From the IMG/VR virus record IMGVR_UViG_3300018429_000006, positions 1 to 53,170 of that record: a DNA stretch of 53,170 nt, one strand, 5' to 3'. Origin of the DNA: a virus. Position numbers and translations under genes: made by a program. The notes under the pieces were generated by a model that saw nothing but the letters and a program-made list of their open reading frames with translations, did not search any database and was not told the DNA's origin. This document shows, one piece after another, positions 46,599-52,913 of this stretch (within the stretch, counting starts at the first letter, position 1; each line of letters opens with the position of its first letter).

Positions 46599-46670
46599 AC
46601 ACGAAGCGCCAGTAAGAGTTACTCCCAAACTATTTATTTGATAAAACACTCTAACTACCATTTCTCGTGT
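46599..46670 (+). ncRNA. Y RNA candidate Y1 (72 nt)
   Basis: The outer helix is ACACGA (46599-46604) with TCGTGT (46665-46670), followed inside by AGCG on the 5' side and preceded by TTTC on the 3' side. The inner helix is AGAGT (46615-46619) with ACTCT (46648-46652), and a TACTCCC motif stands where the other copies have TACTTC. The loop is A/T-rich with no tRNA-like part. The CGAAG context at the helix end is the known Ro60-binding feature of Y RNAs. It starts at the predicted transcription start and ends 3 nt before tRNA-Trp. Confidence 0.65.
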
Positions 46671-46673
46671 CTT

Positions 46674-46746
46674 AGGTCAGTAGCGTAACGGCTAACGCAA
46701 CGCTCTCCAAAAGCGTAGATTGCAGGTTCGAATCCTGTCTGGCCTG
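46674..46746 (+). tRNA. tRNA-Trp (CCA)
   Basis: A full cloverleaf: acceptor AGGTCAG/CTGGCCT, D-arm GCGT/ACGC, anticodon loop CTCCAAA on an ACGCT/AGCGT stem, T-loop TTCGAAT, discriminator G. Confidence 0.92.
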
Positions 46747-46750
46747 CAAG

Positions 46751-46780
46751 TTTGCACAAACTATAAATGTGTGGTAGAAT
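46751..46780 (+). promoter_or_regulatory. Promoter candidate before tRNA-Pro
   Basis: TTTGCA (46751-46756), 18-nt spacer ending GTGG, TAGAAT (46775-46780). The architecture matches the stronger promoters of this region. Confidence 0.55.
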
Positions 46781-46794
46781 AGTAAGAACAATCC

Positions 46795-46868
46795 CGGTGT
46801 GTGGGAAAATTTGGTAATCCGCGTCGTTTGGGGCGATGAGAGTGCAGGTTCAAATCCTGTCACACCGA
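46795..46868 (+). tRNA. tRNA-Pro (TGG)
   Basis: Acceptor CGGTGTG/CACACCG, anticodon loop TTTGGGG, T-loop TTCAAAT, discriminator A. The next Y RNA candidate starts 2 nt downstream. Confidence 0.92.
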
Positions 46869-46870
46869 CT

Positions 46871-47044
46871 TTGACCGAAGCGATTGAAAAAGATACTTCA
46901 CATGAATGAATATGTCAGTATCGAGTCAGGGGAAACTCTGGCTCCTAGCGTAGGAACCTTCCTACTTGTTTTTCGTTTCACAATGTAGTACCCTTGTAAT
47001 ACCTAAGCAGTACCCAAACTCTTTTTCTGGTATTTCTCGGTCAA
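46871..47044 (+). ncRNA. Y RNA candidate Y2 (174 nt)
   Basis: The outer helix is 8 bp: TTGACCGA (46871-46878) with TCGGTCAA (47037-47044). Inside it are AGCG (5') and TTTC (3'). The inner helix is also 8 bp: GAAAAAGA (46886-46893) with TCTTTTTC (47020-47027), followed by TACTTC (46894-46899). The large interior forms its own hairpins (GATACT/AGTATC, GAGTCAG/CTGGCTC) but no D- or T-arm. A hairpin with a T-tract (46950-46973) inside it could end some transcripts early. It begins 2 nt after tRNA-Pro. Confidence 0.65.
46950..46973 (+). terminator. Possible internal terminator within Y2
   Basis: GTAGG / CCTAC with a 6-nt loop is followed by TTGTTTTT. The stem is short, so termination would be partial at most. 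Confidence 0.4.
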
Positions 47045-47050
47045 TAATTT

Positions 47051-47147
47051 TTGAAAGAAGTGTAGGACTCCGTTCCTTCGGTTAACGCAGCCCACAAGCT
47101 GCCAGCGGTTCAAACCCGCACATCGGGGTCCGTCTTTCCTCTTTCAA
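47051..47147 (+). ncRNA. Y RNA candidate Y3 (97 nt)
   Basis: Outer helix TTGAAAGA (47051-47058) with TCTTTCAA (47140-47147); inside it AGTG (5') and TTTCC (3'). Inner helix GGACTCCG (47065-47072) with CGGGGTCC (47124-47131), then TTCCTTC in place of TTACTTC. The interior has a GCAGC/GCTGC hairpin and a T-arm-like GCGG-TTCAAAC-CCGC. It superficially resembles a tRNA with GGACTCC/GGGGTCC as acceptor, but the T-arm and anticodon spacing do not fit. It ends 3 nt before tRNA-Gly. Confidence 0.6.
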
Positions 47148-47150
47148 TAT

Positions 47151-47223
47151 GCAGAAGTAACTCAGTTGGTAGAGTGCCTTCCTTCCAAGTAGGATGTCGC
47201 GAGTTCGAGTCTCGTCTTCTGCT
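47151..47223 (+). tRNA. tRNA-Gly (TCC)
   Basis: Acceptor GCAGAAG/CTTCTGC, anticodon loop CTTCCAA, T-loop TTCGAGT, discriminator T. The anticodon stem has one T-T mismatch (30-40). Confidence 0.9.
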
Positions 47224-47225
47224 CT

Positions 47226-47294
47226 ATTCTAGATGTGCAGTATCAAGTTACTTCATTTGGCGAAACAACACTTGACACATACGTTCCCTAGGAT
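47226..47294 (+). ncRNA. Y RNA candidate Y4 (69 nt)
   Basis: Outer helix ATTCTAG (47226-47232) with CTAGGAT (47288-47294, one T-G pair); internal TGTG (5') and GTTCC (3'). Inner helix TCAAG (47243-47247) with CTTGA (47271-47275), followed by TTACTTC (47248-47254). It is small like Y1, with no tRNA-like part. It begins 2 nt after tRNA-Gly and is the last RNA before the Ro60-like gene. The match to the consensus is looser than in Y1 and Y2. Confidence 0.5.
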
Positions 47295-47357
47295 CTCCGC
47301 TTTACCCTGTAATCAGACAACTGTCTGAATCGAAAATGACGAAAGGTATACAAAAAC

Positions 47358-48983
47358 ATGTCCAAGTTCAATACTGCCGCTGCACGATCACGTGCTGGCG
47401 TCGGACCAATCAAGTCCGAATCAACTTCCACTCTCAACACCTTCAACGGTGCTCAGGGCTTTGCCCGCGACTCCAAGTCCGAACTCTTCCTTGCCGCTGT
47501 CTCTGACTTCGGTGGAGAGGCAACCTTCTACGAGTCTGCTGACAACCGCACCAAGCGCATTGCCAAGCTGACCCATGAGGTCGCTGTACAGGACCCTGAG
47601 TGGATCACCAACTTCACCACATGGCTCCGCAACGAAGCCAACCTCCGTACCATCTCTCTGACCATTGCTCTTGAGGGTGCCAAGGCGCTCAACAAGGCTG
47701 GTGTTCCGGGTGGACGTACGCTGGTTGCCGGGTCGATCCGTCGTGCCGATGAGGCCGGTGAGGCTCTGGCCTACTGGATGGGCAACTTCGGTCGCAAGAT
47801 CCCTTCTGCTGTCAAGCGCGGTATCGCTGACGGGGCTGTCAAGTCCTTCAACGAATACTCCCTTGCCAAGTACGACACGTCGTCCCACGGCTTCCGTTTC
47901 GGTGACGTGATCGAACTGACTCACCCATCTCCTAAGGATGCCAAGCAGTCCGAACTCTTCAAGTTTGCCCTTGATCGTCGTCGTGACGCGTCCGCAGAGC
48001 CTTCCGAGTCTCTGACCATGCTTCAGGCTCGTAAGGAATTCCTTGCCCTGTCCCCTGCCGAAAAGCGCAAGCTTGTCGATTCGGGAGATGCTGTCATGGT
48101 TCTCGACAACGCTGGCCTCACGTGGGAAGTTCTCGGTTCCACTATCGAGGGCGGCATGGACGCCAAGGCGTGGGAAGCTGTGATCCCTTCAATGGGGTAT
48201 ATGGCGCTGCTGCGTAACCTCCGCAACTTCGAAGATAAGGGCGTCTCCAAGGTTGTCCTTGCTCAGGTTGCTGAGCGGATCTCCAACCCTGAAGAGGTTG
48301 CCAAGTCCCGCCAGCTTCCGTTCCGCTTCCTGTCGGCCTACAACGCGAACTCCGGTTCGCTGCGTTGGGGATTCCCGCTTGAAGAGGCTCTGAACGCGTC
48401 TCTGGCTAACGTTCCTTCTCTGGATGACACCCTTATCCTCGTGGACCGTTCCGGCTCCATGTTCATGACGCGTTCCAAGAACACGGACCTGACTAGCGCG
48501 GACTCCGCTGCTATCTTCGGTACTGCCTTGGCTCTCCGTGGTAACCGCAACACGCTGGTACAGTTCGGATCTACTTCCTCTGAGATCACTCTCAAGAAGA
48601 CGGACTCCGTTCTGAAGACGCTGGAGAAGTTTAGCGCCCTTGGTGGTACGGCGACGTACGACGCCATTGTGAAGCACTTCAAGCCGGGAGTCCACAAGCG
48701 TGTTGTCCTCGTCACTGACGAACAGGCAAACGGGTTCTACCACCGTCTGAATGGCAGGAACGCGAGCTACTGGGACGGTTACGACCGTGTACAGGGCAAC
48801 GTTCTCGACGCACTCCCTTCAAACGTCCCTACCTACACGTGGAACCTTGAAGGCTACACTGCCGGTCAGGGTGAGTCCAAGCCAAACCGCACGTACCTCG
48901 GCGGACTGTCCGATCAGGCTTTCAAGCTGATCCCTCTCGTAGAAGCGGGCTATGACGCTGGCTGGCCTTGGGAAACCAAGTGA
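47358..48983 (+). CDS. Ro60/TROVE-domain RNA-binding protein
   Basis: This 541-residue protein matches Ro60 (bacterial Rsr). The N-terminal 330 residues form a helical-repeat TROVE ring (FARDSKSELFLAAVSDFGGE, LRNEANLRTISLTIALE, IPSMGYMALLRNLRNFEDKG). The C-terminal von Willebrand A domain has a complete MIDAS: D363-x-S365-x-S367 (DRSGS), T431 and D454. Ro60 holds misfolded RNA ends in its central hole and Y RNAs on its outer surface, and can link them to PNPase or other RNases. Its surroundings, seven Y RNA candidates and many tRNAs, fit this exactly. The site AAAGG precedes the ATG at a long spacing. A 24-residue ORF overlaps its stop. Confidence 0.92.
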   Translation: MSKFNTAAARSRAGVGPIKSESTSTLNTFNGAQGFARDSKSELFLAAVSDFGGEATFYESADNRTKRIAKLTHEVAVQDPEWITNFTTWLRNEANLRTISLTIALEGAKALNKAGVPGGRTLVAGSIRRADEAGEALAYWMGNFGRKIPSAVKRGIADGAVKSFNEYSLAKYDTSSHGFRFGDVIELTHPSPKDAKQSELFKFALDRRRDASAEPSESLTMLQARKEFLALSPAEKRKLVDSGDAVMVLDNAGLTWEVLGSTIEGGMDAKAWEAVIPSMGYMALLRNLRNFEDKGVSKVVLAQVAERISNPEEVAKSRQLPFRFLSAYNANSGSLRWGFPLEEALNASLANVPSLDDTLILVDRSGSMFMTRSKNTDLTSADSAAIFGTALALRGNRNTLVQFGSTSSEITLKKTDSVLKTLEKFSALGGTATYDAIVKHFKPGVHKRVVLVTDEQANGFYHRLNGRNASYWDGYDRVQGNVLDALPSNVPTYTWNLEGYTAGQGESKPNRTYLGGLSDQAFKLIPLVEAGYDAGWPWETK

Positions 48984-49054
48984 GCATAGCTCTGCTTCTC
49001 TTCGGCTTCTTCCTAGCTTTGCTGGGTTGGGGCAAGCTACCTGAAAACTGGTAG
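48980..49054 (+). CDS. 24-residue membrane peptide coupled to the Ro60-like gene
   Basis: GTG 48980 overlaps the Ro60-like stop as GTGA. The peptide (MSIALLLFGFFLALLGWGKL then PENW) is a single hydrophobic helix with a short polar end. Overlap-type coupling and the clear membrane-helix composition favour a real gene, but length alone makes it uncertain. I know of no relative. Confidence 0.35.
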   Translation: MSIALLLFGFFLALLGWGKLPENW

Positions 49055-49062
49055 CCCATGCT

Positions 49063-49096
49063 ACACTCCGGAAGTTGACACCAGCTTCCGGAGTGT
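49063..49096. repeat. Perfect 12-bp inverted repeat around a -35 box
   Basis: ACACTCCGGAAG (49063-49074) and CTTCCGGAGTGT (49085-49096) flank a 10-nt spacer that starts with TTGACA. It could be an operator, or a terminator stem for the Ro60-like transcript without a T-tract. Confidence 0.75.
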
Positions 49097-49104
49097 GGTA
49101 TAAT
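49075..49104 (+). promoter_or_regulatory. Strong promo­ter for the second Y RNA and tRNA cluster
   Basis: TTGACA (49075-49080), 18-nt spacer ending GTGG, TATAAT (49099-49104). The start of transcription at about 49111 coincides with the outer helix of Y5. Confidence 0.8.
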
Positions 49105-49109
49105 AGAAT

Positions 49110-49235
49110 TACTGAAGCGCTAGAGATGAGTTACTTCCTCATATGAAAAAGTTCTGGGTTCGAGTCCCAGTCACGGTCCTTGGCCGTGGTAGATTAATTG
49201 GCAAATCAAACACTCGTCTCATCCATTTCTCAGTA
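49110..49235 (+). ncRNA. Y RNA candidate Y5, tRNA-mimicking (126 nt)
   Basis: Outer helix TACTGA (49110-49115) with TCAGTA (49230-49235); AGCG inside on the 5' side, TTTC on the 3' side. Inner helix GATGAG with CTCATC, then TTACTTC. The interior is a permuted tRNA-like unit: T-arm CTGGG-TTCGAGT-CCCAG, acceptor-like 3' strand TCACGGT, a short turn, acceptor-like 5' strand GCCGTGG, TA, then D-arm GATT-AATTGGCA-AATC. This is the YrlA type of bacterial Y RNA, in which the Ro-binding helix takes the place of the anticodon arm. It ends 3 nt before tRNA-Thr. Confidence 0.75.
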
Positions 49236-49238
49236 TAT

Positions 49239-49311
49239 GCTTCCTTAGCTCAGATGGTAGAGCACCTGTCTTGTAAACAGGATGTCGCCGGTTCGACCCC
49301 GGCAGGAAGCT
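49239..49311 (+). tRNA. tRNA-Thr (TGT)
   Basis: Acceptor GCTTCCT/AGGAAGC, D-arm GCTC/GAGC, anticodon loop CTTGTAA on CCTGT/ACAGG, T-loop TTCGACC, discriminator T. Confidence 0.95.
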
Positions 49312-49315
49312 CGTA

Positions 49316-49467
49316 GTTCAGATGTGATTGACTCCTGTTACTTCTATTGCACAGAAAGTATGTCGGTTCAAGTCCGGCTGCGTCTCTCCTTGCCGTTGGT
49401 GAGGTTCGAGACGTATGATGTAATTGGCTAACACTTATAAACACAGGAATCGCCTAGTTCTCTGGAC
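49316..49467 (+). ncRNA. Y RNA candidate Y6, tRNA-mimicking (152 nt)
   Basis: Outer helix GTTCAGA (49316-49322) with TCTGGAC (49461-49467); TGTG inside on the 5' side, GTTC on the 3' side. Inner helix TCCTGT (49333-49338) with ACAGGA (49443-49448), then TACTTC. The tRNA-like unit has a T-arm GTCGG-TTCAAGT-CCGGC (49362-49378), acceptor-like TGCGTCT (49379-49385) pairing with AGACGTA (49409-49415) across a 23-nt loop, and a D-arm-like TGT-AATTGGCTA-ACA. The order is permuted relative to tRNA. It begins 4 nt after tRNA-Thr. Confidence 0.7.
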
Positions 49468-49476
49468 AACTAATTT

Positions 49477-49617
49477 CATATCGAAGCGCAGTAACGGGAT
49501 ACTTCAATGGAAACCCTAGGTCGTAGGTTCAAATCCTGCTCCCCCGACTCATCGGGGGGATAGCTCAGTCTGGTAGAGCGAGAGTAAATAGCACCCGGTA
49601 CGTCCTTTCTCGATATG
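49477..49617 (+). ncRNA. Y RNA candidate Y7, tRNA-mimicking (141 nt)
   Basis: Outer helix CATATCGA (49477-49484) with TCGATATG (49610-49617); AGCG (5') and TTTC (3') inside. A short inner helix CGGG/CCCG is followed by TACTTC. The tRNA-like unit has T-arm GTAGG-TTCAAAT-CCTGC (49523-49539), acceptor-like TCCCCCG (49540-49546), a 6-nt turn, CGGGGGG (49553-49559) with one extra G, and a canonical D-arm GCTC-AGTCTGGTA-GAGC. A tRNA finder may report pieces of this as a broken tRNA. It lies 5 nt before tRNA-Phe. Confidence 0.75.
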
Positions 49618-52559: not shown

Positions 52560-52589
52560 TTGACGCCGCCCCTCAAAAGGTGGTATAAT
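52560..52589 (+). promoter_or_regulatory. Strong promoter for the third tRNA cluster
   Basis: TTGACG (52560-52565), 18-nt spacer ending GTGG, TATAAT (52584-52589). It starts at the last base of the ligase stop codon. Confidence 0.8.
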
Positions 52590-52637
52590 AGTAATAACGT
52601 ATCAGGTAGACAGTTCGGGATCTGTTAAAATCCCTTC

Positions 52638-52827: not shown

Positions 52828-52900
52828 TGGGCCATAGCTCAGCGGGTAGAGCACCGAACTCATAATTCGAGGGTCGCGGGTTCAAGTCCCGCTGGCCCAA
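52828..52900 (+). tRNA. tRNA-Met (CAT)
   Basis: Acceptor TGGGCCA/TGGCCCA, anticodon loop CTCATAA, T-arm GCGGG-TTCAAGT-CCCGC, discriminator A. The first pair of the anticodon stem is C27-A43. It may be elongator Met or a lysidine-modified Ile tRNA; sequence alone does not tell. Confidence 0.9.
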
Positions 52901-52913
52901 CGCAACACAATAC

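Follow-up and report, generated by a model that had tools for sequence, protein, structure and literature searches.

The virus record IMGVR_UViG_3300018429_000006, analysed as a single stretch of 53,170 nucleotides (hereafter the window), carries a gene for a Ro60 orthologue (ro) that is flanked on both sides by seven small elements which, judged by sequence and pairing, are very probably Y RNAs. A phage-encoded Ro60 ribonucleoprotein (RNP) system is probably the correct, and overall the best, explanation of this locus. A first-pass annotation of the DNA had inferred such a system, and that inference is now supported by helix covariation, by slots among tRNA genes that are shared with related phages, by the joint absence of ro and the elements from sister phages, and by matches to the YrlA family that lie below its gathering score. 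Ro60 is a ring-shaped RNA-binding protein and a human autoantigen; in bacteria the function of the Ro60 RNP is largely open, and few Y RNAs have been studied.

The ro gene (47358-48983; on the plus strand, as are the seven elements, promoters P1 and P2 and the tRNA genes between the elements) encodes a protein of 541 amino acids, whose assignment draws on domain profiles, residue alignment and predicted fold. Profile searches recovered a TROVE domain (PF05731, 68.3 bits against a cut-off of 23, E 9e-19) and a vWA domain (VWA_2, 27.5 bits against a cut-off of 27, E 5e-06), and together with the fold match these bear out the earlier reading of a TROVE/vWA gene at this position. Within the metal-ion-dependent adhesion site (MIDAS, DxSxS...T...D), residues D363, S365, S367 and D454 are invariant among aligned Ro sequences, while T431 is invariant in the 26-sequence alignment and at least 90% conserved in a further one. 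His189 and Lys171, which align with His187 and Lys170 of Ro, are each invariant in 26 of 26 aligned sequences; in mouse Ro60 the H187S substitution abolishes Y RNA binding (PMC11277228). The predicted model (pLDDT 85) superposes on the Ro60 structures of Thermus phage phiLo, Deinococcus, Xenopus and human. The top match in the PDB, in both fold and sequence, is the phiLo protein (9l5y; 9kop is about the same chain by sequence score), which is likewise phage-encoded and 28% identical to the window protein. Metazoan Ro60 has in common with it the ring fold and the equivalents of His187 and Lys170, whereas sequence likeness is barely detectable (18-21 bits).

Four of the elements precede ro. Element 1 (46599-46670, slot A) ends 3 nucleotides (nt) ahead of tRNA-Trp(cca) (46674-46747); tRNA-Pro(tgg) (46795-46869) lies 1 nt upstream of the 174-nt element 2 (46871-47044, slot B), and element 3 (47051-47147, slot C) is followed by tRNA-Gly(tcc) (47151-47224) and by element 4 (47226-47294, slot D), whose outer helix is ATTCTAG/CTAGGAT. 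Downstream of ro are element 5 (49110-49235, slot E), tRNA-Thr(tgt) (49239-49312), element 6 (49316-49467, slot F) and element 7 (49477-49617, slot G, before tRNA-Phe). Neighbouring Y RNAs and tRNAs are separated by 1-9 nt, which points to a common precursor. The 5' and 3' ends of the elements pair, and the paired region contains a conserved, interrupted helix, presumed to bind Ro, as is characteristic of Y RNAs. A strict motif finder (6 bp or more of helix closing with GA, next [AT]GYG, and TTYC ahead of the 3' helix) recovered five of the seven and nothing else in the region, found no match on the region's minus strand, and averaged 0.005 matches in 200 dinucleotide shuffles of the region. 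The two elements that escaped it depart only slightly, element 4 by an A-C mismatch adjoining the motif and element 6 by GTTC in place of TTYC. Five elements have TACTTC exactly, whereas element 1 has TACTCC and element 3 TCCTTC. Apart from these small deviations in elements 4, 6, 1 and 3, the anatomy described in the first-pass annotation, (C)GA-AGYG on the 5' side, TTYC on the 3' side and TACTTC or a variant, was confirmed, as were its coordinates, to the base, and its interleaving of the elements with tRNA genes (Trp, Pro, Gly and Thr).

Covariation of the helices in related phages, on which the annotation had staked its interpretation, was looked for and found. Across 26 distinct elements from the window and related phages, 95.2% of the alignment cells of the outer helix are paired, against 60% in shuffles; six of its eight pairs show compensatory changes (68 compensatory cells, with 25 expected), and its covariation score is 0.83, against 0.17 in the control and at most 0.20 in slid controls. 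Its two invariant pairs (GA/TC) belong to the conserved site adjoining [AT]GYG and TTYC. The outer helix is thus variable in sequence and constant in pairing, as had been proposed, and the proposed second covarying helix is equally evident in the short class of elements, where 10 of the 13 outer and inner pairs show compensatory changes. Trained on the short elements, a covariance model also matches elements outside its training set, which lie next to ro in phages of Streptomyces and Gordonia. With T-arm-like sequences in elements 3, 5, 6 and 7, one might take the seven for degenerate tRNA genes or chance inverted repeats, yet compensatory changes keep all the helices, the motifs GA[AT]GYG and TACTTC are conserved and foreign to tRNAs, and shuffles yield nothing. 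We consider that reading refuted on these grounds and give it practically no weight.

The nearest isolate is Arthrobacter phage Atuin, with a Ro 69-73% identical to that of the window, and closer relatives occur among environmental IMG/VR contigs (L006, L007 and L008, 75-81%). All share with the window a set of Y RNA slots placed by the same tRNA genes: A lies upstream of Trp, B downstream of Pro, C and D on the 5' and 3' sides of Gly, E upstream of Thr, F and G downstream of it, and H upstream of Phe. Atuin has six elements and the three environmental relatives seven each; array, slots and promoters are those of the window, except that slot B or D is absent in some. Three sister phages, Racecar, Mimi and Talia1610, share with Atuin the tRNA order Trp-Pro-Gly-Thr-Phe-Gln, and in these we found no TROVE gene anywhere in the genome, no element motif at the locus and, genome-wide, no match to our Y RNA model R2, whose matches in Atuin, L007 and L008 are confined to the ro locus. 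The Gly-Thr gap is about 50-73 nt in the ro-less sisters versus 1.9 kb in Atuin, and the Thr-Phe gap 4 nt versus about 440. Since ro and the elements are jointly absent while the tRNA order stays, the elements are tied to ro and not to the tRNAs; in presence as in absence the two go together, and they are gained or lost as a unit.

The same comparison bears on whether the elements might be processing spacers or transcription control structures of the tRNA operon that do not bind Ro, as their tight placement between tRNA genes and a terminator-like hairpin inside element 2 could suggest. The ro-less sisters, however, have the same operon with gaps of 4-73 nt and no elements, and in Streptomyces and Gordonia phages and in chromosomes elements lie beside ro, many of them without adjoining tRNAs. 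This explanation is strongly disfavoured, its likelihood being very small, and we rejected it because the sisters keep the operon but not the elements. Phages with the seven-member set and sisters that lack the set but have the tRNAs amount to a natural knock-out pair, with Atuin on one side and Racecar, Mimi or Talia1610 on the other; Arthrobacter globiformis was the isolation host of all four.

Two promoters accompany the Y RNAs. P1 (46563-46592; TTGACA-N18-TATAAT, with TG before the -10 box) ends 6 nt before element 1, and P2 (49075-49104; TTGACA-N18-TATAAT) ends 5 nt before element 5, so that transcription would start on a Y RNA, the predicted start being the 5'-terminal base of the element in each case. 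They are the only two sites in the window that match at 12 of 12 positions, and 100 shuffles gave none. P1 is kept in Atuin, L006, L007, L008 and L011; in all relatives that could be read, slots A and E are preceded by TTGACA/TTGACC and TATAAT/TACAAT, and the predicted start coincides with the Y RNA 5' end in 11 of 11 relevant slots. At slot E the -35 box sits inside a perfect inverted repeat of 12-13 bp (window 49062-49097; L006 5706-5745) whose sequence differs between the two, and at slot A the promoter spacer is filled by a 7-8 bp repeat in Atuin and L006 (L001 4416-4434). Symmetry is kept though the sequence varies, which is odd for an operator.

The first-pass annotation spoke of a set of seven Y RNAs; the number stands, but the elements are not one kind of RNA, for they comprise at least four apical designs. 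Elements 1 and 4 bear short hairpin heads without a tRNA mimic (TACTTC-N7-GAA in element 4). Elements 5, 6 and 7 bear the permuted, tRNA-like module typical of YrlA, in which a T-arm is followed directly by a closed acceptor-like hairpin and then by a D-arm, with no anticodon arm (the acceptor loop is enlarged in element 6); in a 22-sequence alignment of such modules, 97.9% of cells are paired and compensatory changes occur at 12 of 15 pairs. In element 3 and five orthologues, an inner helix at the acceptor position is followed by a D-like region, a hairpin at the anticodon position and a T-arm, so that the arms stand in normal tRNA order, not in the permuted order of YrlA. The D-like region is a short hairpin with GG in the loop in most copies (its TTC/GAA hairpin is degenerate in the window copy), the anticodon-position hairpin differs in sequence in every copy, and the L008 copy has one extra hairpin. 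Element 2, kept by four relatives, has an unclassified head of 100 nt with three or more hairpins, and compensatory changes occur in 6 of the 42 predicted pairs of its family. Inside it lies the terminator-like hairpin with a T run (46950-46974); relatives preserve its stem through compensatory changes, and it could attenuate transcription into ro.

Slot E is occupied by a short head in Atuin and L006, by a permuted tRNA-like head in the window and L007, and in L008 by one with a T-arm but without the full permuted module; heads swap within a slot while slot, promoter and docking stem persist. From our covariance model of the permuted module (R1) we used only the strongest matches and those inside elements; the model also responds to junctions between tandem tRNA genes, with scores of up to about 45 bits, and its weaker matches are therefore not Y RNAs. 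Matches of this kind, at tandem tRNA pairs in L037-L039 and other loci, join the 3' half of one tRNA to the 5' half of the next, and YrlA heads could arise from such junctions.

At gathering scores, the Rfam matches in the window are tRNAs plus a single antisense-tRNA match, with no Y RNA among them, and seven chromosomal ro loci give no match at all, so that Rfam alone would miss these Y RNAs. Three results weigh against a Ro60 system here. The Rfam YrlA model (RF02553) gives element 7, its best match, 35.7 bits (E 2.3e-5) and element 5 24.5 bits (E 0.04), short of the gathering score of 69, for which reason we call the elements YrlA-type and do not file them in that family. The TM-scores of the predicted Ro model on known Ro structures are moderate (0.55-0.70). 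Finally, RNA_ligase (PF09414) has no match in Atuin or the window and does not track ro, which leaves an RNA-repair partner inconsistent; no rtc genes occur among the annotated neighbours of the Atuin ro, where no RtcB profile search was made.

Arrays of this kind extend well beyond the Arthrobacter phages. An initial motif finder saw none in the Streptomyces and Gordonia phages, where the docking motif is slightly different (GATGCG...TTTCTAG), and we counted instead with a TACTTC-anchored pattern, whose counts are lower bounds because it misses variants such as window elements 1 and 3. By this measure at least five tandem Y RNAs lie beside ro in Streptomyces phages GiJojo, pSt2308 and LuckySocke and four in BRock, four each in Gordonia phages Rabbitrun and Neville, and others in IMG/VR contigs. 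Among 80 bacterial ro loci, mostly Streptomyces, the upstream copies number two (40 loci), three (30), one (5), four (2) or none (3), with almost no copies downstream. Over the whole locus set the ro strand carries 320 occurrences of the pattern and the opposite strand 12; a mini-hairpin of TACTTC, loop and GAA is formed at 134 of the 320, against 33 at random positions, and is thus enriched but not universal. Chromosomal loci share with the window the 5' motif, the TACTTC junction and RNAs in tandem upstream of ro; in prophage examples the motif reads GGTGCG/GATCTC, versus GAAGCG/TTTCTC in the window.

Arrays of Y RNAs beside ro are accordingly general in actinobacteria (mostly two or three members) and their phages (four or five). 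Six or seven occur only in the phage group described here, and seven, split between the two sides of ro, make the largest set among the loci examined, so that the earlier remark that a set of seven is unusual holds. As such, Ro60 and YrlA were known from phages before (PMC7824862; PMC7765460, citing Sim and Wolin 2018), and the phiLo structure is in the PDB. Our literature search, which did not reach the central Y RNA papers, turned up no description of a phage Y RNA array with several members, of Y RNAs as transcription start sites inside a tRNA operon, or of a Y RNA with a tRNA-like module in normal order. The motif helix-GA[AT]GYG ... TACTTC ... TTTC-helix marks a large actinobacterial Y RNA set that goes unreported when Rfam's own cut-off is applied. 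It also shows that at least two phage 'tRNAs' in GenBank belong to Y RNAs: 'tRNA-Arg(cct)' of GiJojo (L002 4769-4843) and 'tRNA-Ser(gct)' of LuckySocke (L041 2774-2847) are each the 5' half of one and comprise the docking motif, TACTTC and a T-arm. Y RNA heads in L012 and L016 appear to mislead tRNA finders in the same way.

Metazoan Y RNAs resemble the window elements in having a basal-stem binding site in a CGAAG-like context, and we know of no tRNA module in the human ones. Human Y RNAs number four (PMC4030889). Closer in design are the bacterial Rsr/Ro60-YrlA systems (Salmonella rsr-yrlBA-rtcBA, Deinococcus RYPER), which like the window combine a TROVE/vWA protein, adjacent Y RNAs and a basal stem of paired ends (PMC8394870, PMC7790460), and whose YrlA has the permuted T-arm, acceptor and D-arm module of elements 5-7. 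The window differs in having seven RNAs rather than one or two, in their position on either side of ro and inside a tRNA array, in promoters predicted to start on a Y RNA, in short and unpermuted designs beside the YrlA type, and in showing no rtcBA among the annotated genes beside ro.

In the favoured reading the phage would make a Ro60 ring protein and seven Y RNAs from the same tRNA-bearing transcripts, with RNA polymerase starting on elements 1 and 5 and tRNA processing releasing the remaining Y RNAs. The ends of each Y RNA would form the basal stem, whose conserved asymmetric internal loop is the presumed Ro60 docking site, and on its inner helix and TACTTC junction each would present a different apical domain. 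These modules, several of them tRNA mimics, may recruit effectors such as the host exoribonuclease PNPase, which is the partner in Deinococcus RYPER, and/or tRNA-handling enzymes, turning Ro60 into a set of particles that would degrade or survey structured RNA during infection, presumably to the phage's benefit. Y RNA is known to tether Rsr to PNPase, and the tRNA-like domain of YrlA is a substrate of DusA and TruB (PMC8394870, PMC8058203); by analogy a role with PNPase or in structured-RNA decay is our first choice among partners, though its chances are somewhat short of even.

The tRNA mimics also permit a different emphasis, in which the Y RNAs act mainly as tRNA decoys: Ro60 would stabilize them while their modules titrate host tRNA-binding or -modifying enzymes, or elbow-recognizing anti-phage nucleases, and so protect the phage tRNAs. 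At least four of the seven have an intact T-arm (GGTTCRA), the permuted ones also a D-arm, and none a decoding anticodon; the array is interleaved with tRNA genes at 1-9 nt; YrlA is modified by DusA and TruB (PMC8394870), and Salmonella YrlA has been suggested to act as a decoy for a tRNA nuclease (PMC7790460). However, decoying cannot account for the whole set, because elements 1 and 4 lack a tRNA mimic, it leaves the need for Ro unexplained, and the sister phages retain their tRNAs without any decoys; we think it unlikely to be the main role. Returning to the Ro60 particles, we advance as a speculation, with odds clearly below even, that the phages possess an expandable Ro60 guide-RNA kit, in which one docking stem accepts interchangeable heads (permuted and normal-order tRNA mimics and the unclassified 100-nt head among them), heads are swapped within a slot, the permuted ones perhaps derive from tandem tRNA junctions, and several Ro particles with different effectors are deployed at once from one tRNA operon. 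A viral ro gene set among seven Y RNAs suggests that, in viruses, a simple particle for RNA handling has become a modular kit.

Two further observations concern the tRNA genes. Throughout, the antisense strand of tRNA genes is matched by the Rfam family RF04354, 'Plastid-ycf2', in the window at 52828-52901 (minus strand) and likewise in related loci, with one match exceeding the gathering score; the family looks like antisense tRNA. A near-perfect promoter (52560-52590) lies upstream of a second tRNA block in the window (Val, Leu, Met, Arg and Ser).
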